Source: Magnetospirillum sp.
GTDB taxonomy: Bacteria; Pseudomonadota; Alphaproteobacteria; Rhodospirillales; Magnetospirillaceae
Direction of reading: 5' to 3'
Length of the DNA: 64,000 nucleotides
Assembly: GCA_024707145.1 (NCBI GenBank)
Contig: JANQAI010000005.1
Span: forward strand, 1,054,001 to 1,118,000
The translations under genes and the position numbers were made by a program. Each line of letters begins with the position of its first letter. The stretch's first letter is position 1. Of this stretch, positions 6,623 to 22,282 are shown in pieces. Below the pieces are notes generated by a model. That model was not told where the DNA came from. It saw nothing but the letters and a program-made list of their open reading frames with translations, and made no database searches.

Positions 6623-6755
6623 GGAGGTGTCAGGCGACACGTCAAACTGCCCCCCTGGCGACACGAGGAATTGCCCCCCTTGAGAGAAGGGGACTTGAGG
6701 GATGGCGAGCTTGAACGAGGCTTTTCCGCGGGGCTGTGAACCGCGGAGGGACGTG

Positions 6756-8006
6756 ATGAAGGCGCCGGATGACGTGTCGGCGATGCTGAAGCTGAAGGCG
6801 CTGGGTTGGGGCGTGAAGCGGATCGCGGCGGAACTTGGCTGCTCCAAGCACACGGTGAAGCGGTGGCTGGGTCTGGGCGCGTGGCGTCCGTGCGCATCGC
6901 CCTCGCGGTCGAAGCGGCTGGACGATCATGGCGATTGGTTGGCCGAGCGGTTCCAGCGGCACGCTGGCAACGCCGACGTGATCCGGCAGGAACTGGCGCG
7001 GGAGAAAGGGATCGCGGTCAGCCTGCGCACCGTGGAGCGGGCAGTGGCGCCGCTGCGCCGGGAACTGGTGGCCCAGGCGCGGGCGACGGTGCGCTTCGAG
7101 ACGCGGCCGGGTGAGCAGATGCAGATCGACTTCGGCGTCCGGCGCATCGAGATCGGCGGGGTGGCGACGGCGGTGTTCCTGTTCGTGGCGACGCTGGGCT
7201 TTTCCCGCCGGTTGCATGTGCGGGCCTACGGGCATGAGAAGCAGGACAGTTGGTTCGATGGCCTGGAAAGCGCCTTCCGGGCCTTCGGCGGGGTGCCCGA
7301 GGAGGTCCTGCTCGACAACGCGCGGGCGCTGGTCCTGCACCATGATGCGGCCAGCCGAGAGGTGGTGCTGCACCCGCGCCTGCACGCCTTTGCCCGGCAC
7401 TGGGGTTTTCGGGTGCGGGCCTGTGCTCCGTACCGGGCCCGCACCAAGGGCAAGGACGAGCGTGGCGTCGGCTACGTCAAGCGCAACGCCATCGCCGGCC
7501 GCTCCTTCGCGACCTGGGCGGAGTTGGAAGCGCATCTGGAGGCCTGGACGCGGGACATCGCCGATCAACGGCTTCACGGCACGACGGGCGAGGCGCCGAT
7601 CGAGCGGTTCCGGCGGGAGGAAGCCCAGGCGTTGAAGCCGCTGGCCGGCATCCCGCCCTTCACGACGGCGCGCGACCTGGTCCGCCGGGTCGGTGCGGAC
7701 TGCGCGGTGGAGGTGGACGGCAACGCCTACTCGGTGCCCTGGCGGCTGATCGGCGAGCGGGTCCGGGTGATGGTGGAGGCCGGCACGCTGCGGGTTCTCT
7801 ACGCCGGCCGCGAGGTGGCGGTGCATGCCGAGCTGAAGGGACGGCATGGGCGCTCGATGCAGGATGCCCACCTGGCCGGCGTCGCCGGGGCGGACGGCCG
7901 CCCGGTCCGCGTCGCCCGGGCCGAGGACGGCGGCGCGGTGGCGGCGGTTCCGGCGCTGCTGCGTCCGCTGGCCGAATACGAGGCCGTGGCCGGGGGAGGC
8001 TTCTGA
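6756..8006 (+). CDS. istA: IS21 transposase IstA
   Basis: DDE/integrase-type transposase. An N-terminal helix-turn-helix (GVKRIAAELGCSKHTVKRWL) is followed by the catalytic core: Asp in EQMQIDFGVRRI, Asp in EVLLDNARALV and Glu in KGKDERGVGYVKRN. The ATG at 6756 is chosen over 6702 because GGAGGGA lies just upstream. Length of about 416 residues is slightly short of many IstA proteins but complete. The stop overlaps the start of istB (TGATG), giving translational coupling. Confidence 0.9.
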   Translation: MKAPDDVSAMLKLKALGWGVKRIAAELGCSKHTVKRWLGLGAWRPCASPSRSKRLDDHGDWLAERFQRHAGNADVIRQELAREKGIAVSLRTVERAVAPLRRELVAQARATVRFETRPGEQMQIDFGVRRIEIGGVATAVFLFVATLGFSRRLHVRAYGHEKQDSWFDGLESAFRAFGGVPEEVLLDNARALVLHHDAASREVVLHPRLHAFARHWGFRVRACAPYRARTKGKDERGVGYVKRNAIAGRSFATWAELEAHLEAWTRDIADQRLHGTTGEAPIERFRREEAQALKPLAGIPPFTTARDLVRRVGADCAVEVDGNAYSVPWRLIGERVRVMVEAGTLRVLYAGREVAVHAELKGRHGRSMQDAHLAGVAGADGRPVRVARAEDGGAVAAVPALLRPLAEYEAVAGGGF

Positions 8007-8791
8007 TGAGCGAGCACGATCATCTGGTCGCCATGCTGAACCGGCTGAAGCTGACGGCCTTGCGCGACCAGCTCGACAGCCTGATCGACGAGGCCGGGCG
8101 GCGGGAACTGACGATCCGCGAGGCCCTGGCGCTGTTCTGCGAGCGGGAGATCGCCCGGCGCGACCAGCGCCGCATCGACATGGGCTTCGGGCTGGCCCGC
8201 TTTCCCTTTGTGCGCGACCTGGCCGGCTTCGACTTCGCCGCCCAGCCCTCGCTCGACAAGGCGCAGATCCGGGAGATCGCGTCGGGACGCTTCATCGCCA
8301 ACGGCGAGGCTGTTCTGTTTCTTGGGCCGCCCGGGGTGGGCAAGACGCATCTGGCGGTGGCCATCGGACGGGAGGCCATCGTGGCCGGCTATTCGGTGCT
8401 GTTCAGCCCGGCGACGACCCTGGTGGCCCAGCTTGCCAAAGCCCATGCCGACGGCCGGCTGGAGGAACGGTTGCTGCACTACGCCAAGCCCAAGCTGCTG
8501 ATCGTCGATGAACTGGGCTACCTGCCGTTCGAGCCGGACGCCGCGCACCTGTTCTTCCAGCTTGTCAGCCGGCGCTACGAGAAGGGGGCGATGCTGGTGA
8601 CCTCCAACCGGGCCGTGGGGGAATGGGGCAGCGTCTTCGGCGATCCCGTCGTAGCGACGGCGATCCTCGACCGGCTGCTCCACCACAGCCACGTCGTCAC
8701 CATCCGCGGCGACAGCTATCGACTTCGCGAAAAGCGCCGCAGCGGGCTTCTGCAGAAGCCCGCTGCGGCGCCTCAACCGACCACCGCCTGA
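8006..8791 (+). CDS. istB: IS21 ATP-binding protein IstB
   Basis: AAA+ ATPase that assists IstA by selecting and remodelling target DNA. Walker A is GPPGVGKTH (about residues 108-116), Walker B is LLIVDELGYL, and the sensor segment is MLVTSNRAVGEWGSVF. The N-terminal DNA-binding helical part is typical. 261 residues matches the family. The start codon overlaps the istA stop. Confidence 0.93.
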   Translation: MSEHDHLVAMLNRLKLTALRDQLDSLIDEAGRRELTIREALALFCEREIARRDQRRIDMGFGLARFPFVRDLAGFDFAAQPSLDKAQIREIASGRFIANGEAVLFLGPPGVGKTHLAVAIGREAIVAGYSVLFSPATTLVAQLAKAHADGRLEERLLHYAKPKLLIVDELGYLPFEPDAAHLFFQLVSRRYEKGAMLVTSNRAVGEWGSVFGDPVVATAILDRLLHHSHVVTIRGDSYRLREKRRSGLLQKPAAAPQPTTA

Positions 8792-9210: not shown

Positions 9211-10717
9211 CTACCGGCCGTAATGCATCATGTGCTGTGGCTCCAACAGCCGCTCGTATTCCATTTCGAGATACGCATCCACCGCTTCAACATCGAGACC
9301 GCCGGCCCTGTACCAAGCTCGCAGTTCCTTCAGCGCCAGGGTTCCGAAACGTGCCCAGCCGATGAGGTTGGACCGAAGCATGAACTGGATCATGTCGCCC
9401 CCGGATCGGAGGGCAGCGTCGGCACCATCGACGACACACAGCGTTCCGTGCCCGACGAGGAGCATTCTGCGAAGCTCGGGGTTGGCGGCCGAAGGCACGC
9501 ACTCTGTCCAAGGCCTGTCGTGATGGAACCGCTGCTTGAATGTCCACATCACCCGGATAAGAAGTTCCGTCACGAGGACAGGTATGGCCAAGGCCATGCC
9601 GTGCCGGAAATCGTAGCCCTTCTCGAACACCTGGACAGCGATCTTGGCGAAGGTCTGCTTGTGCTGCCCGAACTCGCCGATGTCGATGAACTGCAACAGA
9701 GAGAAGAAGGGGATGGGGATTCCCGAGCCTCGCCCTTGGGCGCCGGACGAGCCGGCGACGTCGGAGACCAGGTGCCCGAACCAGTTCACGAAGCCAGCGA
9801 AGACCTTCGACACAAAGTCGGAGCCCTTCAGCTCGAAGCCGCTGTCGCTCGTATCGACGGAGATGATCTTCCCACCGTCAACGAAGTGGGCCGTGTTCGT
9901 AAACTGGTCGAGAATGGAGAAGAACAGGCCAACGAGATCAGGTGAGTGAGCCAAGCTTTTGATGTGATGGTTCTTGGTGCTCATATCGAACAAGCCACCG
10001 ACGTCCCCGCCATGTCGATGGTCGTAGTTCACCTTGAAGTTTCTCTCTAGGAACGCAATGGCGCTTGCCATCGGGTCTTTGCCCTCGCGAGGTCCTTTCC
10101 AGCCGCAGACCCGCGCGAACTTCTGAACGAAGCCGTCGGTGACGTCGTCCGTGAACTTGGTCAACGCCCCCTTGTCCAGGGAGCCCGACGAAGAAGATGT
10201 CGATGAGCCCGCCGACGAACCCGCAAGTGCCGGCGATCATGTAGTCAAATTTGTCGCAGTTCGCGTTCTTGAGCGAGAACTCGTCCCTGATCCTCTTTTC
10301 GAGGGCGATCCGCTGGGTTGGGCTGAGGAGGCTGGCAAAGGGGTCTTCGGAGAGCGTCAGGCCGTTCCGGTCCGCATACCCCTGGACCTTGGCGAAGTAC
10401 GACGCCCAGTCGTCGCCCACTTCGATGTCGATGAAGTCCAAGGAGGGGATCGGCGCCGAGCGGACCTCGACTTCCACTTCCTCAATGACCAGTACCAAGT
10501 CGCCTGCCTCGGCCTTCCCTCCCGGAGCGATGAACCCGCCCTCCAGCATCTCCTCGGCCAGCGCATACAAGGCATCCAGGTCGTCCTGATTGTTGCGGAG
10601 GCGGGATGCGATGCCGTCGAGCGCGGCGTTCGCCGCGCCGAGCACTCCCTCGGCTTTGTTGAGCTGGTCCCGCTGCATCAGCAGGGCGTTGCCCTGATCG
10701 ACCAGATCCGTGCTCAT
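9211..10717 (-). CDS. Conserved protein with His/Asp motifs, partner of the PH/TerB-like protein (frame break)
   Basis: Function not recognised. Corrected length is about 501 residues. The N-terminus (about 1-60) is a coiled coil. Then come a small domain, a hydrophobic segment (AGTCGFVGGLIDIFFVGLPG) and a long C-terminal part with conserved-looking motifs: YDHRHGGDVGGLF, HHIKSLAHSPDLVGLFFSIL, FGHLVSDVAGSSG and GIPIPFF. Several hydrophobic helices suggest membrane association; the His/Asp clusters could bind metal, which is inference. The start overlaps the upstream stop (ATGA). A C5 run at 10167-10171 holds one base too many: the frame ends there and resumes as LTKFTDDVTDGF. I believe similar proteins occur widely beside a PH/TerB-like partner, but cannot verify it here. 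Confidence 0.75.
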
Positions 10718-12397
10718 GAGAGCAACCCGGCGAGCTTTTCCTTGGCCTTGAGCGTCATGTCCACGGCGGAGCCCTTGAGGACGTCGCCGACGTTGAAGTA
10801 GCCGATGGCCTCGAACGCCTTTGCAAGATTTTCGAGGCTCTTGGTGTCGCAGTCCGGTTTGAGGGTCAGCCTGCTCACCTCGGAGCGGGTTCCGTCCTTC
10901 TCGACGATTTCCGTCCGCTCTTCGTAGAATCCGCTGATGTAATCGTACAGCAGCAACTTCGTCGGCTCGCGCGTCAGAGCGTGCAGCGTGTTCTGATTGA
11001 GGTGTTGGGCGCACCTGATCCGGTTGGCGCTGTTCTGAGCGGTATCCGCCTTCCGGGTAAGGATGTCGCCTGCAGAGCTCATCTGCCTCATCAGGTTCAT
11101 GAGCTTCCTGATCTGGGCTTCCTGCCGGTCGGTGGCGGCGAGAGTCTCGTTCAGCCGGCCAACGATGAAATTGATGTCCTGCACCAGCAGGGCGATGGTG
11201 CCCTGGGTCTGCTTGATGACCTCGTTCAGCATCAACTCGCGACGTTTCGACCTTGTGACTTCGTTGACGCCCGTCAGCTTGCGGACACCGGCATAGGCGC
11301 CGACGCCGAGCAGCACGGCGACGCCAATCCCCGTCGCCATGCTCGACAAGCCGAGGAGCCCACCCATTCCCAGGGTTGCGAGGCCGGAGGTGATACCGGC
11401 CGCCGACATGCCGACCACGGACCCCGAGATGTAGACGGCGGCCAGCGGGGTTCCAACGGCGGCGGCCTTAGCCGACAGAAGCTTCATCGCCGCGACCAAG
11501 TGGTCGTCGGTGAACTCCGACTTCAGCATTTTGAAATCGTTCTCGATCGCCATCATGATGAGTTCGATCTCGCCGTCGGCGACATCCAGCAGCCTCCGGT
11601 ACTCCTGGAAGAAGCCGAAGTCCGCGACCGACCTGCCGCCCGTACTCATGTGCGTGTTGATCAGATCCTTCGTCAGCGAGACGTGTAGGGTCTTGATTTG
11701 CCCGTCGGGGCACCCGGCGTGGAGGTCGGCGAGTATACCCTCGAAGGGAGTCAGCCCATCCGCCGAGGACAGATAGGCCCTCAGCGTGAAGCGGGCGTCC
11801 GGGCTGAGGTTCAGCCGGGTCATCAGGAGCAGGATTTCGGCGAATTCCTTCTCGTCGATCGCGCCGTCATTCCAGTAGGCCATGTTGATGACGGCCTTGA
11901 CGTACGCGATCTTGACGGCGTCGCTCATTTCCTCGACGGGTATGAGCTGCTTCGCCTCCTTGTACTCGTCGAAGTCGTCGATGCACGATTGTAGAATGGC
12001 CGCGAGCCGCTCGTAGTCGCAGTCGATGAGATCTTTCAAAGCGACGGTGCCGCCGGCATTCAGGGCGATTTCGACCGCCTCGACGATCTTGTCGTTCTTC
12101 TTCCCGGTTGTGGTCTGCGAGTATTTGACGGATTCGACGTCGGTGAAGGGCACGCTGATCGGCGAGCCGAAGGCAGGGCGGAAAATGAATCGCTCGCCGG
12201 TGAAGAGAAGGCCGTCCTTTCCGCTGCCCAGCAGGGTGGTGTCATAGATGGCGATGACGGTGTCAATGCTTCCCGAAAAACCGAAGGCCTTGACGGCGTT
12301 GTTCAGCTTCCCCCTCCGGGATGTTCGGCGCGACGGACACCCTTTTGGCCGATACCCCGCTGATGTTATTGCGAAGATAGGTGTTTATGTCGGCCAC
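10714..12397 (-). CDS. PH-like and TerB-like membrane protein, first gene of a two-gene operon (frame break)
   Basis: About 560 residues after correction. Residues 1-90 (VAPNIPEGKLNNAVKAF, then IAIYDTTLLGSGKDGLLFTG) look like a bacterial PH-like sensor or lipid-binding domain. About 140-210 (AYVKAVINMAYWNDGAIDEK) resembles a TerB-type helical domain. About 300-365 is a Gly-rich hydrophobic stretch, probably membrane-inserted, followed by a coiled coil and a C-terminal domain. Start GTG 12397 has GAGGTGG upstream. A C5 run at 12310-12314 breaks the frame; the downstream part is open from 12153. It shares an ATGA overlap with the next gene, so they are one operon. A role in stress or phage defence is inference. 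Confidence 0.75.
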
Positions 12398-13014: not shown

Positions 13015-14178
13015 TCATGGTTGGGACGCTTGGCGGGCTCGCCACGTCGACACCAGGAAGGTCGCCACCGTCCCAGCGAGGTTCACCGCCAGTTCCGCAT
13101 GCCGTGCCGACGGGCGGACCGCTTTGCGTCCACGGCCGTGGGCATCGCTCAGCTTGTTGCGGATGCTGGCCAAGCTGTTCACGACGTTCTGGCAGTTGCC
13201 GAGGATGATTTTGAACACTTCCTCGGTGTGCTGGTCCGGGGCGAGCTGGAGGTGCTCGGCGGCCGTCCTGTAAAGCTTCGGCAACTCGTCCCGATCGCTG
13301 TAAGTGCCGCCGGCATCCTCAATGATGTGCTTGCAGACGGTCTCCAGCAGCGTCCGGGCCGAGGTGATCGCTCCCTCCGGATGGGTTGTCCGCCGCTGCA
13401 GCGCCCGGGTCCAGGCTTCGTGCACGCTGGCCTCGTCGAAGGCGGCAAGTGTTTCTGAGATGAGAGGGTCGGCCGGAGCCCCGGCGGAGCCGCCGATGGC
13501 TTTGACGGTGAACACTGGATAGCCCGATATGGAACTGGTCTCGGCCAGATGGAAACCATCCCGTTGCAGGAGGGGATTCAGAACCGCGACCATCCGGCGC
13601 TGCTCGCCCTCCTCCCGGGTCCGTGGATGCAGCAGAGCCTCCAAGAAGCGAAAGAACCGGCGTTGCGAGCAGGTATAGGCACCGACGGCCTCCAGGGCGT
13701 CATCGTTGTCCATGTCTGCGTTTCGGTGCATGTGTCGGTCAAGGTCATCCTGCACCGTTCCACCGGAATAGAGACGGGACGGCAGGCGGTCGATCGGCCA
13801 GATGTCCCGCAGGAACTCGAATATTGGCACATGGCCGGAAAGGTCGAATGGGATAAGCGCCCGGCCAATCGATCGCCGAAGGAGTTCGGAGATCAACCGC
13901 TCGCCAGCCTCCTCAACCCGCCCCACGGCCTCTTCCAGCTCATAGTTCGGGCCATCCTGCAAAAGCTGGTACGCAAGCTGAAGCAAACGCTCACGTGACA
14001 ATCCACTGATCCGCCCCTGCACATAGTTGCGCTTGCTGGCGAACGCCTCCTCACGGTCACCGGACGCGAGCCCCAACCCTTCACACACCACCGGCAGAAT
14101 GTTGGCGCTGGTCGGATACAGGGCTTCGACGATGGCGCTGCGCAGCGGAGCAAGCGGGGCGGAGGGAGGCGGTGGCAT
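13015..14178 (-). CDS. Abortive infection family protein (Abi_C domain)
   Basis: About 387 residues. The C-terminal third (HPEGAITSARTLLETVCKHI, then YRTAAEHLQL, GNCQNVVNSLASIRNKLSDA and RHAELAVNLAGTVATFL) matches the Abi_C domain (PF14355) as I know it from phage-exclusion proteins. The N-terminal part is mostly helical and unassigned. Start at MPPPPSAP (14178) or 14208 is uncertain. The gene stands alone, convergent with the arsH remnant, in a region rich in mobile DNA, which fits a defence role. The protein would act by halting growth after phage attack; the mechanism cannot be read from the sequence. Confidence 0.75.
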   Translation of the reverse strand: MPPPPSAPLAPLRSAIVEALYPTSANILPVVCEGLGLASGDREEAFASKRNYVQGRISGLSRERLLQLAYQLLQDGPNYELEEAVGRVEEAGERLISELLRRSIGRALIPFDLSGHVPIFEFLRDIWPIDRLPSRLYSGGTVQDDLDRHMHRNADMDNDDALEAVGAYTCSQRRFFRFLEALLHPRTREEGEQRRMVAVLNPLLQRDGFHLAETSSISGYPVFTVKAIGGSAGAPADPLISETLAAFDEASVHEAWTRALQRRTTHPEGAITSARTLLETVCKHIIEDAGGTYSDRDELPKLYRTAAEHLQLAPDQHTEEVFKIILGNCQNVVNSLASIRNKLSDAHGRGRKAVRPSARHAELAVNLAGTVATFLVSTWRARQASQP

Positions 14179-14340
14179 CAGGACAGTCCAACCGTGAGGG
14201 GAGTACAAAGCTTAAGCTCAAGCCATGCTACCAACAATGCCGAGGTATCAGCCCGTCATGACCGTGTCGCTTGGCCTGGGCAGAGATACGGTGGAGACGC
14301 TCGGGCTGCTCCCCTGACCACGGGTTATTGCCTGTCACTG

Positions 14341-15315
14341 TTATGGGATGCTTTGCAGGCCTTTGAGCGATTTGGGCGGACGGCCGCGCCGGCGAGGCGC
14401 TTCCGGTGCAGGGAGCGGTCGATCTTCCAAAAGACCCTGTGCGACGGCCTGACCCAACAGATTCTGAACCGACGAGACCGACCAGCGCGTTTCTCCGCGG
14501 GGCGTCCGGCAATGCAGCTCTTCAAGATGCCGGGCAATGTTGGTCAGGGTCGGGTTGTCCAGCGTCTTCACCGCCGAGGCGACCAAGGTGACGAGGTCGT
14601 CGCTGTCCCGCCGCCGCGGCGTACGCTCCAGCACCCGGTCGTCCACGAACCCGTCCCGCGCGAGGCGACGCACGGCACGCGCCAGGGCCGGCCCGGTCCA
14701 GGGGCCACCGTCGGGGCGCCGCGAGTCGTTTCTAGCCAAGCTGCGGGCCACGGTTGCCCAGGAATAGCCGGGCCGCATCGCGCGGACGTGAGGCAGGATG
14801 TCGTCAGCCACCCGCAGCACATCGGCGTCGCGCCTCGCCTCGCGGGCGTCGTTGACGGCGCGCACCGCCGCCGCGGAACGGAAGCGCAGGCCCGGATTGC
14901 CGCCGATTCGGCCACGCTCCCTGGCGGCCTTCAGCCCGGCCTTGGTGCGCTCACGAATGAGCGCACGTTCGAACTCGGCCACCGCGCCGAGGATCTGCAA
15001 GGTGAAGCGGCCCTGTGGGCTGGTGGTGTCGATGGGATCGCCCAGCGAGCGGAAGCCCGCCCCTTGGGCGTCGAGCGCCTCGATGATCTCCAGGAGATGG
15101 GCGAGCGAACGGGCCAGCCGGTCGATGCGCACGACGACCAGCACGTCGCCGGCACGGCAGCGCGCGATGGCACGCTTCAGCTCCGGGCGCGACCGGTCGC
15201 CGCCGGAGCCATGCTCCCGATGGATCGTTGAGCAACCGGCCGCCTTCAGCGCGTCGAGCTGCGGGTCGGTGGTTTGCTCGTCGGTCGACACGCGGGCGTA
15301 CCCGATCAGGGCCAT
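14341..15315 (-). CDS. Serine resolvase with C-terminal extension
   Basis: Small serine recombinase. The catalytic domain starts MALIGYARVSTDEQ with nucleophile Ser10 and continues with VVVRIDRLARSLAHLLEII and EFERALIRERTKAGL. A longer C-terminal part (about residues 140-324) replaces the usual short helix-turn-helix and ends in a basic tail (RRRGRPPKSLKG). The start is placed at the conserved MALIGYARVS (15315). It lies just outside the left end of the Tn402-like transposon and points away from tniA. It is clearly related to the resolvase at 22401-23306 inside that transposon. Confidence 0.88.
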   Translation of the reverse strand: MALIGYARVSTDEQTTDPQLDALKAAGCSTIHREHGSGGDRSRPELKRAIARCRAGDVLVVVRIDRLARSLAHLLEIIEALDAQGAGFRSLGDPIDTTSPQGRFTLQILGAVAEFERALIRERTKAGLKAARERGRIGGNPGLRFRSAAAVRAVNDAREARRDADVLRVADDILPHVRAMRPGYSWATVARSLARNDSRRPDGGPWTGPALARAVRRLARDGFVDDRVLERTPRRRDSDDLVTLVASAVKTLDNPTLTNIARHLEELHCRTPRGETRWSVSSVQNLLGQAVAQGLLEDRPLPAPEAPRRRGRPPKSLKGLQSIP

Positions 15316-15378
15316 GGACCTCTCCCAACGCAGCGGTCCGGAAACGGTGCACGCCGCCAAATTTTACCCGATTAAGCT

Positions 15379-15508
15379 TGTCGCCGTAGAGTAGATCTGT
15401 TTAAAAGCTCACCAGGAAAACTGCGGGGTCGTAGGAAGTTTGGTTGAATAGATCAGGTTAGAAAAAGAGGTATTCTGGTTAGAAGTACAGAGCGGATCAG
15501 GTGAAAAG
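15379..15508. repeat. Left end of the Tn402-like transposon with four transposase-binding repeats
   Basis: Repeats: GATCTGTTTAAAAG (15394-15407), GATCAGGTTAGAAA (15451-15464), TATTCTGGTTAGAAG (15471-15485) and GATCAGGTGAAAAG (15495-15508). The last touches the tniA start, so TniA binding would also shut off its own promoter or translation start. Confidence 0.75.
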
Positions 15509-15510
15509 TC

Positions 15511-17189
15511 TTGGCCCGATCTCCGACCGATACTCCCCTGACCAAGGTGCCTGACGAGGTCTGGCAGACCGCGCGGAAGCGTGAACGGGTCATCAGAACG
15601 CTCGTCCAGCAGCCGGTCCTGTACGGAGCCCGCAGCGAGGCCATGGTTGCCGCGGCCAACGAGCTTGGGATCACCCTCCAGTATCTTTATCGCCTCGTCA
15701 AAGCCTATGCGGCTGACCCGCGCACCCGCTCTCTGCTGCCCAAGATCCCTGGGCCACAAGCAGGGTTGCGGCGCCTCCATCCTCGTGTCGAGACGATCAT
15801 CGAGGAGGAGATCCAGACCCGCTACATGGATCTGCTCAAGCCGAAGAAATCACTGCTGATGAAGGGCATCCACGCCCGGTGCGCCGCCGAAGGGCTGGGC
15901 AAACCGGCCCGTGAAACCGTCGAAGCCCGCTTGGCGGTCATCAGCAAGCGGGAGCAGACCAAGCGGCGCCACGGCCCCAAGAAGGCGCGTGAGGACTTCA
16001 ACCCGATCCGAGGATCGCTGGAGGCCGAACGCGCTCTGGAAATCGTCCAGATCGACCACACCCCAACCGACGTGATGGGGTGGAGCCCGACACGCTGGAG
16101 GTCATCGGGCGCCCGTTCATCACCCTGGCGATCGACATCCGAACCCGGATGTACTGCGGCTTCTACCTGACCTTCGATCCGCCCAGCGCGTCCAGCGTGG
16201 CGGCCTGCGTCGCCCACGCGGTGATGGACAAGAGTGACTGGCTGTCGGCGCGCGGTCTTCCGGCCAAATGGCCAGTCACGGGCCTGTGCGAGGTCATCCA
16301 TGTCGACAATGGCAAGGAGTTCCACTCCAAGGCCTTCACCCGGGCCTGCGAGGATTACGGCATCGAGGTGCGGTACCGGCCGCCGGGAACGCCGCACATG
16401 GGCGGCCATGTCGAGCGGCGCATCGGCCACCTCATGCAGGAGCTGCACCTCCTGCCCGGCACCACCTTCTCCAACATCAAGGAGCGGGGCATCTACGACC
16501 CGGCCGGCAACGCCTGCCTCACCATCGCCGAGATCGAGTGGCTGGTGGCCAGCATCATCCTGGAACATCACGCCAGCTTCCATGAAGGCATAGGCACGGC
16601 ACCGCTCGCCAAATGGACCGCCGACACGGAGGGGCGAACCTTCCGCACCCCGGCCGACCTGCGGACGTTCCACCGCGACTTCCTGCCGTTCGAGGATCGG
16701 AAGGTCCAGCAGGACGGCATCCATCTCTTCAACGTCCTCTACTGGCACGACGCACTGACGCCCTTCCTTCACGACAAAGCCTGGGTGACGGTCCACTACG
16801 ACCCGGCCAACCTGTCCAAGGTCTTCGTCCGGGGCGTGTCGGGGGACTATCTGGAGGTGCCTTACCGAAATCTGCGCCGTCCGGCCATTTCCAAGTGGGA
16901 GTTGAAGGCGGCCACCCGCGCGCTGCGCCGGCAGGGACGGGCCGGCGTCGACGAGGCGATGATCTTCGAGATGGTGCTGGCGCGGCGCAAGCTGGTCGAC
17001 GAGGCCCGCGGCCGCAGCCGGCGGGCGCGGCTGGAGCATGCCCGTAGCGCCCGGCCGGGATCGGGACCGACGTTGCCGGCCTCCGATCCGACGCGGACGA
17101 TCGACGCGGAGTTCCAGGTCATCGCCGACGACGCCGACGATGTTCCTCTCGACCTGCCCTTCTACGAGACCGAGGAGTGGGATGACTGA
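15511..17189 (+). CDS. tniA: Transposase TniA (frame break)
   Basis: DDE transposase of the Tn402/Mu/Tn7-TnsB type, about 559 residues after correction, the usual TniA size. Catalytic Asp in VQIDHTPTDV, Asp in IHVDNGKEFHS and Glu in GGHVERRIGHLM are present. The start is taken as TTG 15511 just after the last left-end repeat. The frame breaks at the G run 16077-16080: residues before it are read from 15511, and those after it are open from 16080 (PDTLEVIGRPFITLAIDIRT). One missing base explains this, probably a sequence error. The stop overlaps the tniB start. Confidence 0.88.
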
Positions 17190-18054
17190 CGCACACGGGC
17201 ATCTGGGAATCTCGGCGCGCGATGTGATCGGCTTGTCCCCCGAGGAACGGATCGCCCGAATGCAGAGCCGCCGCTTCACCGAGTACCCGCGCTGCCGCAT
17301 GGTGCTCGATCTGCTGAGCGACCAGGTCAACCAGCCGAGCGGCGTGGTGAAGCCCAACCTGCTGGTCTGGGGCGAGTCCGGACAGGGCAAGTCGACCATC
17401 ATGAAAAAGCACCTGCGCGACCACCCGGCGGTCTTCGACAAGCAGACCGGCGTGCGGCGCGCGGCGGTGGTTGGCCTGGAAATGCCGCCGATGTGCGACG
17501 TCAAATGGTTCTACATCAAGCTGCTCAGCGCCATCGACGCGCCGGTAAGCGAATCCCGCAGCAGCCTGCCGGTCATGGCGGACCGGGTGGTTGCCCTCTA
17601 CCGTCTCATGGGCGTCCGTCAGATCCTGGTCGACGAGGCGCACAACATGCTGATGGGCAGCGTGCGGCAGCAGCGCATGATGCTGGCGGTGATCCGGAAC
17701 CTGTCCAACGAGTTGGGCATTCCTCTGGTGCTCTTCGGCATTCAGGACGCCCGCGAGGCCTTGATGCACGACCGCCAGCTGACACGGCGTTTCCGTTTCA
17801 TCGAACTGCCGATGTGGGGGGCCGGGGAGGAGTTCCAGGCCTTGGTCGGCAGCATCCTGCGCTCCTTGCCGCTGCGCCGCCCCTCGCCCCTGACGGCACG
17901 CGCGCTCAAGACCCTGCTGACCCACAGCGACGGCGGGACCGCCAAGCTGTTCGAAACGTTGATCGACCTCGGTATCGACGCCATCCGCTCCGGGGAGGAG
18001 CGCATCACGCCGGAGATGATCAAGGATTACGTCAGCCTGCCGGTCCTGGCGTGA
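17182..18054 (+). CDS. tniB: Transposition ATPase TniB
   Basis: AAA+ protein (290 residues) that partners TniA in target selection, like TnsC and MuB. Walker A GESGQGKST is at about residues 64-72, and the Walker B region is RQILVDEAHNML. The ATG at 17182 overlaps the tniA stop (ATGACTGA) and the stop overlaps the GTG of tniQ, so the three genes form one coupled operon. Confidence 0.92.
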   Translation: MTDAHGHLGISARDVIGLSPEERIARMQSRRFTEYPRCRMVLDLLSDQVNQPSGVVKPNLLVWGESGQGKSTIMKKHLRDHPAVFDKQTGVRRAAVVGLEMPPMCDVKWFYIKLLSAIDAPVSESRSSLPVMADRVVALYRLMGVRQILVDEAHNMLMGSVRQQRMMLAVIRNLSNELGIPLVLFGIQDAREALMHDRQLTRRFRFIELPMWGAGEEFQALVGSILRSLPLRRPSPLTARALKTLLTHSDGGTAKLFETLIDLGIDAIRSGEERITPEMIKDYVSLPVLA

Positions 18055-19385
18055 CTGGCGGGCTGCTGTTCACCACCGTGCCGGGGTTGCCGGTGGTGCC
18101 GCTCCCGGCCAAGGGAGAAGCTCTGAACAGCTGGATCTGGGCGATCGCGCGCACCTACGGGCTGATGCCGAAGACCTACCTACGACGGTTGGGCATTCCG
18201 CATCGCTGGCTGACCAAGGCAATCGAACAGGACTTGGTGATCCAGCCACTGCCGAGCGTGATGGAGCGGCTTCAGGCCGACACCGGGATGGCTCCGGACG
18301 TGGTGTGGGGCATGACCTTCTTTGGGCTGGACCGCGAACTGGAGGACGCCTGCCGACGCCACCACGCCCCTTGCGCGGCTTGTGTGAACGAGGCGTCCGA
18401 GCGGGCGGGGCGACCAGTTGGCTTGCTTCATGCGCGGGCCGCGTGGCGCATTGTCTGCCCCGATCATCTGCCCACCCCGAAGCCGATGGAGATGGCGGAC
18501 AGTCTCCCCCTGGTGCCCTTCCATGGCCAAGTGCGAACCATCATCAGGTTTCTTGACCGGGCGGCGTTCGATCCGCGGGCCTTTGAAGGCATCGTTGGCA
18601 CACGGATGGCGCCAGCCTTCACGGTCACGGTCTTCCTGCGGTTCGTGTTTCTGCTGAACGCATATCTCAGCGTTCAAATCACCGAGTTCGATGAACTGCG
18701 TGACTGGGCCGGGTTCCGCATCCGGCGGACCTTCACCCGGAACGAGGCCGGCGAACCACTGCCGCTGCCGCCGGAGGAGGGCAACGATCCGGCCATCTCC
18801 CTGGTTCTGGCGTGGCAGCTCGTGGCCGCTCCGATCCGTACACTGTTGGCCGGTCTGCACACCGTCAATCCGGTTCACCGCAAGACGGCACGGGACACAG
18901 GACAGCTCATCGCCCTGGCCTGCCTCCTGCTGGAGTTCTGGCCGGGAGAGATGCTGACCCCGCTGTTGACCCGGCTCGCCTTGTCCCGCCAGGATTGGAA
19001 CGGCGATGGCGACCGCACCGGCCTGGCCATCGCCACGACCGCCCCTTGGAGCAACGATCCGAGCCATTCCGCGCGCTTGGCCGAGGCGCACTGGACGCAC
19101 ACCGCCTGGACCCGCGTTCTGTTCTCCGATGCGATCCGAAACCACCACACCCGGCGGGTTTCTCGGTTCCCAGCCGCCGGGCCGTTCCGCTGGCGGTTTT
19201 TGGCTGCCAACGGGCAAGCGGCGCCCCTGATCGGGGAGATCCGCCGCGAGGCGAGACAGAGCGGCCGGAAGAAACCTGCCAGTTTGGGGCTATTCCTGGC
19301 GAAGCCGGTGCCGGCGACCCGGGAGGCGCACGCAGCTCCGCCGCAACCGGTGTCGGTGCCCGCCATCCCGACGCACATCGCGTAG
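18051..19385 (+). CDS. tniQ: Transposition protein TniQ
   Basis: TniQ-family protein, about 444 residues, an accessory factor for target choice in Tn402 and Tn7 relatives. The N-terminal region (EALNSWIWAIARTYGLMPK) and a Cys/His cluster (CRRHHAPCAAC, then RIVCPDHL) that probably binds zinc are typical. It starts with GTG overlapping the tniB stop (GTGA). The C-terminal half is less conserved and ends in a Pro/Ala-rich tail. No CRISPR genes are nearby, so this is not a CRISPR-associated transposon. Confidence 0.88.
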   Translation: MTGGLLFTTVPGLPVVPLPAKGEALNSWIWAIARTYGLMPKTYLRRLGIPHRWLTKAIEQDLVIQPLPSVMERLQADTGMAPDVVWGMTFFGLDRELEDACRRHHAPCAACVNEASERAGRPVGLLHARAAWRIVCPDHLPTPKPMEMADSLPLVPFHGQVRTIIRFLDRAAFDPRAFEGIVGTRMAPAFTVTVFLRFVFLLNAYLSVQITEFDELRDWAGFRIRRTFTRNEAGEPLPLPPEEGNDPAISLVLAWQLVAAPIRTLLAGLHTVNPVHRKTARDTGQLIALACLLLEFWPGEMLTPLLTRLALSRQDWNGDGDRTGLAIATTAPWSNDPSHSARLAEAHWTHTAWTRVLFSDAIRNHHTRRVSRFPAAGPFRWRFLAANGQAAPLIGEIRREARQSGRKKPASLGLFLAKPVPATREAHAAPPQPVSVPAIPTHIA

Positions 19386-19984: not shown

Positions 19985-20308
19985 TCAGTGACCGGAAGTC
20001 AGTTTAAGGCCGGCGATGCAGGCCACCAGCCCAAAGATGAGCAGGATGCGCACCGGCGTCGCCGGCTCGCCGAATGCCATCATGCCGATGACAACCGTGC
20101 CGAGGGCGCCGATGCCGGTCCACACTGCATAGCCGGTGCCCAGAGGAATGCCGGACCGCGTCGCCACTTCGAGAAGGGCCATGCTGAGGGTGAGCGAGAC
20201 GATGAAACCCAACGTCCAGGGCAGGTTCCTGAAACCATCCGTGTAGCGCAGGCAGGTCGTGAATCCGATTTCGAACACGCCGCCGAGAACAAGATAGAAC
20301 CAAGCCAT
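19985..20308 (-). CDS. Small multidrug resistance (SMR) transporter
   Basis: 107 residues with four hydrophobic helices. The conserved membrane Glu is in YLVLGGVFEIGFTT (near residue 13) and the C-terminal helices read LGTVVIGMMAFGEPATPVR, typical of SugE/EmrE-type proton-driven exporters of cationic drugs or guanidinium. It lies 2 bp downstream of the NADH dehydrogenase stop and is surely in the same transcript, controlled by the divergent TetR gene. Substrate is unknown. Confidence 0.88.
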   Translation of the reverse strand: MAWFYLVLGGVFEIGFTTCLRYTDGFRNLPWTLGFIVSLTLSMALLEVATRSGIPLGTGYAVWTGIGALGTVVIGMMAFGEPATPVRILLIFGLVACIAGLKLTSGH

Positions 20309-20310
20309 GG

Positions 20311-21633
20311 TCAGATCCTTGAATGCTGTGTGTCGTTGTGCCTGGAACTGCCGGGCTTCCCGCCGATGCGGCGTGGCGGCTGGCCCGGCCAGTGTGTAAG
20401 CAGGCGGGCGGCGCGGCGGTTTGTGAACCACGCCCAGGTCCAGTTGAGGTGGACCGACAGGCGGCTGCGATGGTCGACGAGGAGCAGCAGGTGGACCAGC
20501 GACCAGGTGAGCCATGCCATGTGCCCGCCAAGCCGCAGCCAACCGAAATCGGCGACGGCCCGCGACCGGCCGATCACCGCCATGGTCCCCCAGTTGCGAT
20601 AGTGGAAGGCTGCTGGCGCCGAGCGGCCGGCGAGGCGCGCCAGAATGAGCTTGGCGACGTAACGCCCCTGCTGTTTGGCAACCGGTGCCAATCCTGGCAG
20701 GACGGTCCCATCGGCGGTTCGGTGGCTGGCCACGTCGCCGATGGCGAAAACATCTGGATGACCCGGGATGGAGCAATCGGGAGCAACCAGCACGGCCTTG
20801 TTCCGCGCCGTCTCCGCGTGAAGCCAAGCTCCAGCCGGACGCGCCTGGGTGCCGGCGCACCAGATTACGTTTGCGCTCGCAATGCGCTTGCCACCGATAA
20901 CGATTCCGCTCTCGTCGATCCGCTCGACCGCCTGATCCAGCAGGACTTGAACACCCAGCGTCCGGAGGGCATGGAGGGCTTGGCTCGACTGCTCGGGGCG
21001 GAAGGCCGAGAGCACAGTCTTTCCAGCCTCCACCAACAGAATCCGCACCTGCTGGCTGGTCACGCGCCGGAAGGCACCGGCGAGCGCCGTCCGCGCCAAC
21101 TCGGCGATGGCGCCAGCCATTTCGACCCCGGTCGGGCCGGCACCGACGACGACGAAGGTCAGCAGGCGCTGGATCTCTTCGTCCTCGTCGCTCCGCTCGG
21201 CTTCTTCGAACGCGGCCAGCAAGCGCGCCCGGATGCGCAGGGCATCGTCCAGCGTTTTCAGAACCGGGGCGTGATCCGCCCACTCGTCGTGCCCAAAGAA
21301 GCTGTAATCGGCTCCCGTTGCCAGGATCAGGTAATCGTACGGAATGGCACCGCTCTGCGCAGCGTTCACCCGCTTGCGTGCGGTATCCACGCCCGTCACC
21401 TCGTCCATCACCACAGTGACGTTCGAGGATTTCCCGAACAAGGATCGTGTCGCCGCGGCGATGTCCGCCGGGGACAGGGCTGCGGTTGCGACCTGATAAA
21501 GGAGGGGTTGGAACAGGTGATGATTGCTTCGGTCGATCAGCACCACGTCGGCCGTGCTGCCCGCCAACGCCTTGGCGGCCGCGAGGCCGCCGAAGCCACC
21601 GCCAACGATGACGACGCGTTTGTGTTCTTCCAT
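20311..21633 (-). CDS. Type II NADH dehydrogenase-like flavoprotein
   Basis: FAD/NAD(P)-dependent oxidoreductase, 440 residues, of the NDH-2 family that passes electrons from NADH to quinone at the membrane without pumping protons. The FAD-binding VVIVGGGFGGLAAAKAL is at the N-terminus, the NAD-binding VVVGAGPTGVEMAGAIAEL lies near residue 165, and the FAD-contact motif FAIGDVAS near residue 300. The C-terminal WSLVHLLLLVDHRSRL helix is the likely membrane anchor. The gene is divergent from tetR and upstream of the SMR gene. The pairing suggests a respiratory or oxidative response to toxic compounds; this is inferred. Confidence 0.9.
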   Translation of the reverse strand: MEEHKRVVIVGGGFGGLAAAKALAGSTADVVLIDRSNHHLFQPLLYQVATAALSPADIAAATRSLFGKSSNVTVVMDEVTGVDTARKRVNAAQSGAIPYDYLILATGADYSFFGHDEWADHAPVLKTLDDALRIRARLLAAFEEAERSDEDEEIQRLLTFVVVGAGPTGVEMAGAIAELARTALAGAFRRVTSQQVRILLVEAGKTVLSAFRPEQSSQALHALRTLGVQVLLDQAVERIDESGIVIGGKRIASANVIWCAGTQARPAGAWLHAETARNKAVLVAPDCSIPGHPDVFAIGDVASHRTADGTVLPGLAPVAKQQGRYVAKLILARLAGRSAPAAFHYRNWGTMAVIGRSRAVADFGWLRLGGHMAWLTWSLVHLLLLVDHRSRLSVHLNWTWAWFTNRRAARLLTHWPGQPPRRIGGKPGSSRHNDTQHSRI

Positions 21634-21697
21634 ATCTCATGATCCGGAAGCTGTGGTCGATAAGCCAAGCCTTGCGGCGAAGCTGGCCGCGCTTTAA

Positions 21698-21711
21698 AAT
21701 ACGTGCGTATT
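21698..21711. promoter_or_regulatory. Palindromic operator between the NADH dehydrogenase and tetR genes
   Basis: AATACG-TG-CGTATT is a perfect inverted repeat in the 103-bp gap between the divergent starts (21633 and 21737). Position and symmetry fit a TetR-family operator controlling both directions. Confidence 0.65.
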
Positions 21712-21736
21712 GGTAATTTGCAAGAGAGATGAGGCC

Positions 21737-22282
21737 ATGGGGCGCCGCAAGACCATCGACCGAAACCATGTCCTTGAAGTTGCTGAGGAAATCATAGGCT
21801 CCCGGGGGGCCGCCGCGTTGACGATCGACGCGGTCGCGAAGGCTGCCGGGATCACGAAGGGAGGAGTTCAGTCCTGCTTCGGCACCAAGGAGGTGCTGAT
21901 CGCCGCAATGCTCAAGCGTTGGATTGGCGATTACGAACAGCAGTTCGATAAGATCGCCGGCGAGGGGGCGACCCCGGTCGAACGCGTTGCGGCTCATGTT
22001 GAGACGACCCACCGGCACGATGACGGTTCGCACAGTCGTGTCGTTGGGCTGTTGGCAGCGCTTCTGCAGACGCCGGAGCACCTCGCGGAAACCCGCCACT
22101 GGTATGAACGTCGGTTGGACGGCCTTGACCTCAACACCGACGAGGCCCGGCGCGCCCGGCTGGCCTTCCTGGCCACCGAGGGCGTGGTCCTCCTGCGATT
22201 CCTTGGACTGGTGCCGCTCACCAGTGGGCAATGGGACGACATCTTCAAGGACATCAAGACCTTGATCGCAGAAAATGCCTAG
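21737..22282 (+). CDS. TetR-family transcriptional regulator
   Basis: 181 residues. The N-terminal helix-turn-helix (TIDAVAKAAGITKGGVQSCFGTKEVLIAAML) is typical. The C-terminal part resembles the ligand-binding domain seen in multidrug-efflux repressors. Start at MGRRKTID (21737) is preferred to 21710, with a purine-rich AGAGATGAGG upstream. It is divergent from the NADH dehydrogenase-SMR operon, whose repressor it most likely is, with the 21698-21711 palindrome as operator. Confidence 0.9.
   Translation: MGRRKTIDRNHVLEVAEEIIGSRGAAALTIDAVAKAAGITKGGVQSCFGTKEVLIAAMLKRWIGDYEQQFDKIAGEGATPVERVAAHVETTHRHDDGSHSRVVGLLAALLQTPEHLAETRHWYERRLDGLDLNTDEARRARLAFLATEGVVLLRFLGLVPLTSGQWDDIFKDIKTLIAENA

Follow-up and report, generated by a model that had tools for sequence, protein, structure and literature searches.

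Identification of a predicted Bunzi gene pair in Magnetospirillum sp., and an invariant His/Asp core and recurrent glycine-zipper partner among BnzB relatives

The window analysed here, a stretch of 64,000 nucleotides of Magnetospirillum sp. DNA, carries two genes on the minus strand, bnzA before bnzB, which are joined by an ATGA overlap and form an adjacent two-gene operon as in Bunzi. The initial annotation had described two long genes with this overlap; the overlap stands, but in this assembly neither gene is a single open frame since both change frame. The features of the pair are as follows, with BnzB residues numbered after the intact orthologue P0002.

10714..12397, minus strand: bnzA, frame-broken, with an N-terminal 44-amino-acid piece at 12263-12397 and the main open frame at 10714-12153 and upstream
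11974..12360, minus strand: predicted PH domain of BnzA, approximate, with the frame break inside
11455..11952, minus strand: predicted TerB domain of BnzA, from the fold in the predicted structure
11269..11466, minus strand: glycine-zipper-like membrane segment of BnzA, from the sequence, related to short partner proteins
11017..11247, minus strand: coiled coil of BnzA, long model helices 412-448 and 454-488
9211..10717, minus strand: bnzB, frame-broken near 10140-10165, in pieces 10140-10717 and 9211-10164
10244..10246, minus strand: BnzB D158 codon, D in 100/101 relatives
10021..10023, minus strand: BnzB D232 codon, YDHRHGG motif, 101/101
9946..9969, minus strand: BnzB H250 to H257, HHxxxxxH motif, both outer His 101/101
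9760..9774, minus strand: BnzB H315-x-x-S318-D319 motif, 101/101
9610..9612, minus strand: BnzB D369 codon, GYD motif, 99/101

The main bnzA frame (10717-12153) matches PADLOC BnzA with an E value of 7.7e-165, residues 2-479 aligning with positions 83-544 of 544 in the model. The two pieces of the second gene match PADLOC BnzB (2.9e-43 and 5.2e-151) and cover positions 8-193 and 191-502 of 504. Searches of the pair against Pfam gave sub-threshold matches only, and those against NCBIfam gave none. The initial annotation took the pair for an undescribed system, a view that has to be given up because PADLOC names both proteins Bunzi and papers list Bunzi as anti-phage (available portions of PMC10952713 and PMC12926258). 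Similarity to Bunzi (PADLOC PDLC03833 and PDLC03834) extends over almost the full length of both proteins and includes gene order, overlap and the TerB domain; there is no substantive difference in design, although the window copy is frame-broken in the assembly. Judged by these profile matches, the window pair is almost certainly a copy of Bunzi, a two-gene anti-phage system already named. The original report of Bunzi is said to be that of Millman et al. 2022.

In the available portion of PMC10952713, TerB is listed for 'Shango Bunzi' and the TerB entry for mechanism reads 'N/A'; that of PMC12926258 places Bunzi among the systems with mechanism 'Unknown'. We found no Bunzi mechanism in the available portions of seven open-licence papers (PMC10952713, PMC12926258, PMC11206119, PMC10121019, PMC12629846, PMC11305592 and PMC13379101), and no family-wide pattern of BnzB and glycine zipper in the available portions of the open-licence Bunzi papers.

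In the predicted structure of an intact BnzA orthologue, PH and TerB folds are followed by the glycine-rich segment and the coiled coil, in agreement with the PH-like, TerB-like, Gly-rich and coiled-coil parts originally proposed for the first gene. Shango and other TerB-containing defence systems have the TerB domain in common with the window BnzA (PMC10952713, available portion), but the window proteins gave no match to the Shango models in PADLOC at E up to 1.

For the second gene, our alignment comprised 101 BnzB-like proteins drawn from several bacterial phyla as well as from plasmids and phages. Identity between sampled pairs spans 12-97% (median 38%), and just 13 positions, the start Met included, are conserved in at least 99 of the 101 sequences. 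Seven residues are identical throughout (D232, H250, H257, G263, H315, S318 and D319); D158 and G332 are shared by 100 relatives, and P259, P336 and D369 by 99. The coiled coil, hydrophobic helices and three motifs that had been noted in this protein were borne out by an N-terminal coiled-coil-like long helix, by hydrophobic helices and by the presence of all three motifs, and the conservation check proposed for the motif residues gave a clear answer: HHIKSLAHSPD contributes its first and last His, FGHLVSD its His, Ser and Asp, and YDHRHGG its D, all of them invariant in 101/101. Since three His and several Asp are kept across such divergence, we read them as a metal or catalytic site; the invariant His/Asp set is likely to be a metal-binding active site, predicted to lie at the cell membrane, and we infer that these residues may form one joint metal site. 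The suggestion that the motifs may be an enzyme site thus stands as far as a probable functional site is concerned, while enzymatic activity is our inference.

Hydrophobicity of BnzB peaks in 19-residue windows near 159-177, 261-279, 375-393 and 418-436. Because there are just two to four strongly hydrophobic stretches, an integral membrane position is an uncertain prediction. The structure model of P0002, built with 71 sequences, has a mean pLDDT of 91.4. Its comparison with PDB and BFVD gave no convincing fold match, and a sequence search of the PDB returned no sequence related to BnzB. As no solved or viral fold matches convincingly, the fold assigns BnzB to no enzyme class.

We then compared the genes that accompany BnzB relatives. 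Full BnzA lies directly upstream of BnzB in 54 of 74 genome loci and overlaps it in 44, in keeping with the conserved two-gene unit that the initial annotation had supposed. From 96 loci, 77 had enough flank for partner typing and 19 lacked flank or a BnzB of >300 amino acids; the locus counts leave out L013 (BnzB ORF lost to the overlap filter) and L077 (a fragment), and count the identical pairs L074/L078 and L026/L027 twice. The 77 loci comprise 52 with full BnzA, 13 whose partner is of the PDC-M09A type, 4 whose partner is a short zipper protein, 2 in which one frame holds both parts, and 6 others. An ORF passing a glycine-zipper rule, a composition rule of our own that misses the segment in three BnzA loci, was found on the same strand within 3.5 kb in 68/77 loci, compared with 1/59 control genes of the same loci and a background of 1/615 distant ORFs. 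By type, the rule was passed at 49/52 loci with full BnzA, 12/13 with PDC-M09A, 4/4 with short partners, 2/2 one-frame loci and 1/6 others. The nine loci with no detected zipper are L035, L048 and L059, where BnzA is present, and L057, L064, L066, L072, L126 and L159; the zipper of L064 is present but beyond the counted distance. A glycine-zipper protein is therefore the near-constant partner of BnzB relatives, and the full PH-TerB BnzA accompanies only part of them. What is new here is that BnzB, as judged from the alignments, belongs to a broad family with an invariant His/Asp core and a near-constant zipper partner.

Clostridial BnzB relatives without the N-terminal coiled coil adjoin a separate glycine-zipper protein corresponding to M09A of the PADLOC candidate system PDC-M09 (5.2e-101, L062), as does a phage relative on NatCom_3357 (3.9e-70). 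The C-terminal tail of the clostridial and phage relatives matches the second component, M09B (3.7e-12, L062), and a small, separately encoded TerB protein occurs in addition at 7 of the 13 adequately flanked PDC-M09A-type loci (Pfam TerB 6e-7, L062). The window pair, in contrast, includes a complete BnzA in which both PH and TerB are present, and we found no M09A next to it. We found no mention of PDC-M09 in the open-licence literature. At L160 a separate gene matches positions 1-149 of BnzA, its PH end (1.6e-38). The BnzB relative of an Enterobacter IncHI2A plasmid (one record; 6.5e-53) follows a 165-amino-acid protein that matches BnzA at positions 301-414 only (1.6e-6), that is, in the zipper part, and on phage NatCom_11578 the partner of the BnzB relative is likewise a short zipper protein of this kind (BnzA 7.7e-5). 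A Streptococcus phage record has a BnzB relative with no full zipper gene, but with a 71-amino-acid ORF weakly matching the zipper family (2e-4). At L156 and L157 single ORFs of 777 and 793 amino acids combine a BnzB core (2.9e-37 and 1.6e-42) with a zipper, which matches PDC-M09A at 8.3e-19 in L156, and PDC-M09A at 0.001 and LeoBC at 8.5e-5 in L157. Links to the dynamin-type LeoA/LeoBC system are a weak match of LeoBC to zipper partners (5e-9, L062) and the locus L064, where the zipper is separated from BnzB by a LeoA homologue (1.5e-77) together with another P-loop protein, recognised by eye; the window pair differs in having no dynamin-like GTPase.

Profile comparison with hhalign related the BnzA zipper segment to the short partners at a probability of 96.5%, against 0.6% or less for five column-shuffled controls. 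The short partners matched PDC-M09A at 95.4%, the shuffled controls covering the BnzA-segment comparison only. Compared directly, BnzA and PDC-M09A gave a weak 10.4%, with the alignment on the coiled coil and not the zipper. Two open-licence papers, PMC11090510 and PMC12048535, match glycine zipper in combination with anti-phage; in the available portion of PMC11090510 the zipper protein accompanies an ATPase and belongs to CoCoNuT extensions, not to Bunzi.

Several loci hold additional genes of these families. At L057 (8577-9881), a BnzB relative has upstream of it a 435-amino-acid protein with CxxC pairs, zinc-ribbon-like by eye, and no zipper was found there. On a Lactococcus plasmid (L125:2735-3850), a cluster that lies downstream of a WYL regulator encodes, besides full BnzA and BnzB, a second BnzB-like protein of 372 amino acids (PADLOC BnzB 1e-17). 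In two Pseudomonas loci (L003:11673-13238 and L005:11694-13244) a second, distant BnzA-like gene (522 and 517 amino acids; 2e-23) lies just 3' of bnzB. The otherwise normal Bunzi loci of Exiguobacterium (L053 and L055) have a PDC-M09A-like zipper gene (279 and 283 amino acids; 1e-36 and 1e-39) one gene away, upstream of bnzA on the opposite strand.

BnzB is rare and patchy. It was found at E <= 1e-3 in 4 of 398 genomes of the phylum, the window genome included and two of the matches weak (2.7e-4 and 5.9e-4); in 15 of 341 genomes of the class of a Clostridium genome, this centre genome included; and in 1 of 321 genomes of the class of a Pseudomonas genome, the one being the centre genome itself. 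TBLASTN searches with P0002 matched 489 of 72,556 plasmid records, 435 of them typed conjugative; among the plasmid matches listed, 37/40 had <27% identity to P0002. The same query matched 3 of 50,697 phages, and three loci on viral contigs encode a BnzB relative. The carriers include the IncHI2A plasmid, with the relative ~11 kb from terD, and temperate phages. Bunzi-labelled genes on IncHI1 plasmids of Salmonella have already been published (PMC11305592, available portion). On a quickly built tree with long branches and no bootstrap, five partner labels required 19 changes compared with a shuffled mean of 32.1, and 6 changes once the 13 'other' rows were left unscored, indicating that partners cluster yet have been exchanged. 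Phyla are mixed on the tree around the window orthologue, as horizontal transfer would be expected to produce.

Parts that come and go in this comparison, namely PH, TerB and GTPases, are natural sensors, and the parts that last, the BnzB core and the zipper, a natural effector. We propose that the predicted PH and TerB domains of BnzA, which would be a replaceable sensor, would let it detect a signal of infection at the membrane, and that its glycine-zipper helices would engage BnzB in the membrane. BnzB would be the effector: switched on by BnzA and holding a metal through residues among D158, D232, H250, H257, H315 and D319, it would alter or break the membrane and so stop the phage. For the whole of this reading, Bunzi identity together with a BnzA sensor that switches on BnzB as a predicted metal-site membrane effector, we give a probability of roughly 0.4, and it is accordingly tentative. 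From the comparison come a minimal unit, the BnzB core together with a glycine zipper, and a small set of residues to mutate, and with these the mechanism of Bunzi becomes directly testable.

The main rival, itself unlikely, would have the zipper helices form the pore that kills and BnzB act as a scaffold or gate, its polar residues keeping the pore closed or conducting ions, with no catalysis. The near-constancy of the zipper, its ability to share one frame with BnzB, and the failure to find an enzyme fold for BnzB all speak for it. However, three His, several Asp and a Ser are invariant, more than a scaffold would require.

We also considered BnzB as a distant, lipid-cleaving relative of YdjM (PF04307), a family that we take to be a predicted membrane-bound, metal-dependent hydrolase. 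The order of His/Asp motifs is similar (Asp; His-x(n)-His; His-x3-Asp; Gly-x-Pro), and the top local profile alignment sits on the His-x3-Asp motif. The His-His spacing differs, however (H-x6-H in BnzB against H-x4-H), and when 7 and then 28 YdjM sequences were compared with BnzB cores and with the 101-row family the match was not significant (probability 0.2-0.7%, P at best 0.083); P0002 itself matched neither YdjM nor any other Pfam family at E up to 1. On the profile result we do not place BnzB in the YdjM family and keep the relationship as a rival only, an improbable one.

It is about equally improbable, if not slightly more so, that the window copy is a decayed, non-functional Bunzi with real frame shifts beside mobile elements. 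Frame changes affect bnzA (between ~12263 and 12310), bnzB (near 10140-10165) and apparently a nearby tniA-like transposase gene (15511-16170 and 16080-17189), this last split resting on position, with no Pfam match for the 15511-16170 piece. Yet two of two essential control genes are likewise broken in this assembly, which has 15 contigs, a completeness of 91.57% and a contamination of 6.31%: rpoB (90005-90664 and 90934-94146, contig 15) and carB (951986-954835 and 954804-955172, contig 2) each lie in pieces that are in different frames and match consecutive parts of the family model. The bnzA and bnzB breaks are on this ground probably sequencing or assembly errors. In addition, the window bnzB pieces keep all the invariant residues, retaining D158, D232, H250, H257, H315, S318, D319 and D369. 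Intact orthologues are close (P0122, 588 amino acids, 97% identical to BnzA; P0002, 501 amino acids, 95% identical to BnzB). An indel-prone assembly, and not decay of a defence pair, is probably the simplest reading of the breaks, and the Bunzi system is probably intact in the organism.

A role of the pair in general envelope or metal stress, like the one suggested for Ter systems, with phage protection as a side effect, is very improbable: the TerB fold of BnzA and the distant relative near terD on the IncHI2A plasmid fit it, but the patchy distribution, mixed phyla, nearby defence genes, phage-borne relatives and the listing of Bunzi as anti-phage (PMC12926258, available portion) argue against it.

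Returning to the sensor-effector proposal, its wider form would place BnzB at the catalytic core of a large superfamily of membrane immune effectors that has so far escaped recognition. A single invariant His/Asp metal site would work with a zipper partner under varied sensors: Bunzi would use PH-TerB, Clostridia would use either a separate TerB gene or dynamin-like GTPases, and for IncHI2 plasmids and gut phages we recognised no sensor. We put this at just short of an even chance, its odds having been slightly lowered by the plasmid-borne Bunzi in print and by the weak BnzA/PDC-M09A comparison. If it is true, Bunzi, PDC-M09 and the pairs on plasmids and phages would all share one mechanism. 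The comparison of relatives also suggests a possible defence role for the IncHI2A pair near the ter genes, whose annotations read 'membrane protein' and 'hypothetical protein'.

The initial annotation placed the window pair between mobile elements and an Abi_C gene, and both were confirmed. Beside the pair, at 13018-14208 on the minus strand, lies an intact 397-amino-acid AbiJ-type protein (Pfam AbiJ_NTD3 1.5e-39 and Abi_C 2e-21; PADLOC AbiJ 2.7e-20). A Tni-type transposon module at 14341-19385 comprises Resolvase, the tniA-like gene, apparently frame-split, TniB (8.3e-49) and TniQ (2.8e-8), and the Bunzi and Abi genes might be cargo of this adjoining module. For the enrichment in defence islands that had been proposed as a check, we compared 130 sampled near neighbours (of 258) with 130 genes >5.5 kb away (of 244) using PADLOC at 1e-15. 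The near set matches 148 models and the far set 106, and a WYL model matches 9/130 near genes and is absent among the far-set matches listed. The surroundings are defence-rich, as expected, but the contrast between near and far is not clean, since the near set keeps partners (PDC-M09A 4/130) and the far genes come from those very islands. The other flank of the window pair is formed by an IS21-type istA/istB (6702-8791, plus strand; IstB 1.9e-82), and beyond the transposon module a long ORF (19985-22231, minus strand) has an end that matches small multidrug resistance protein (PF00893, 7.7e-21).
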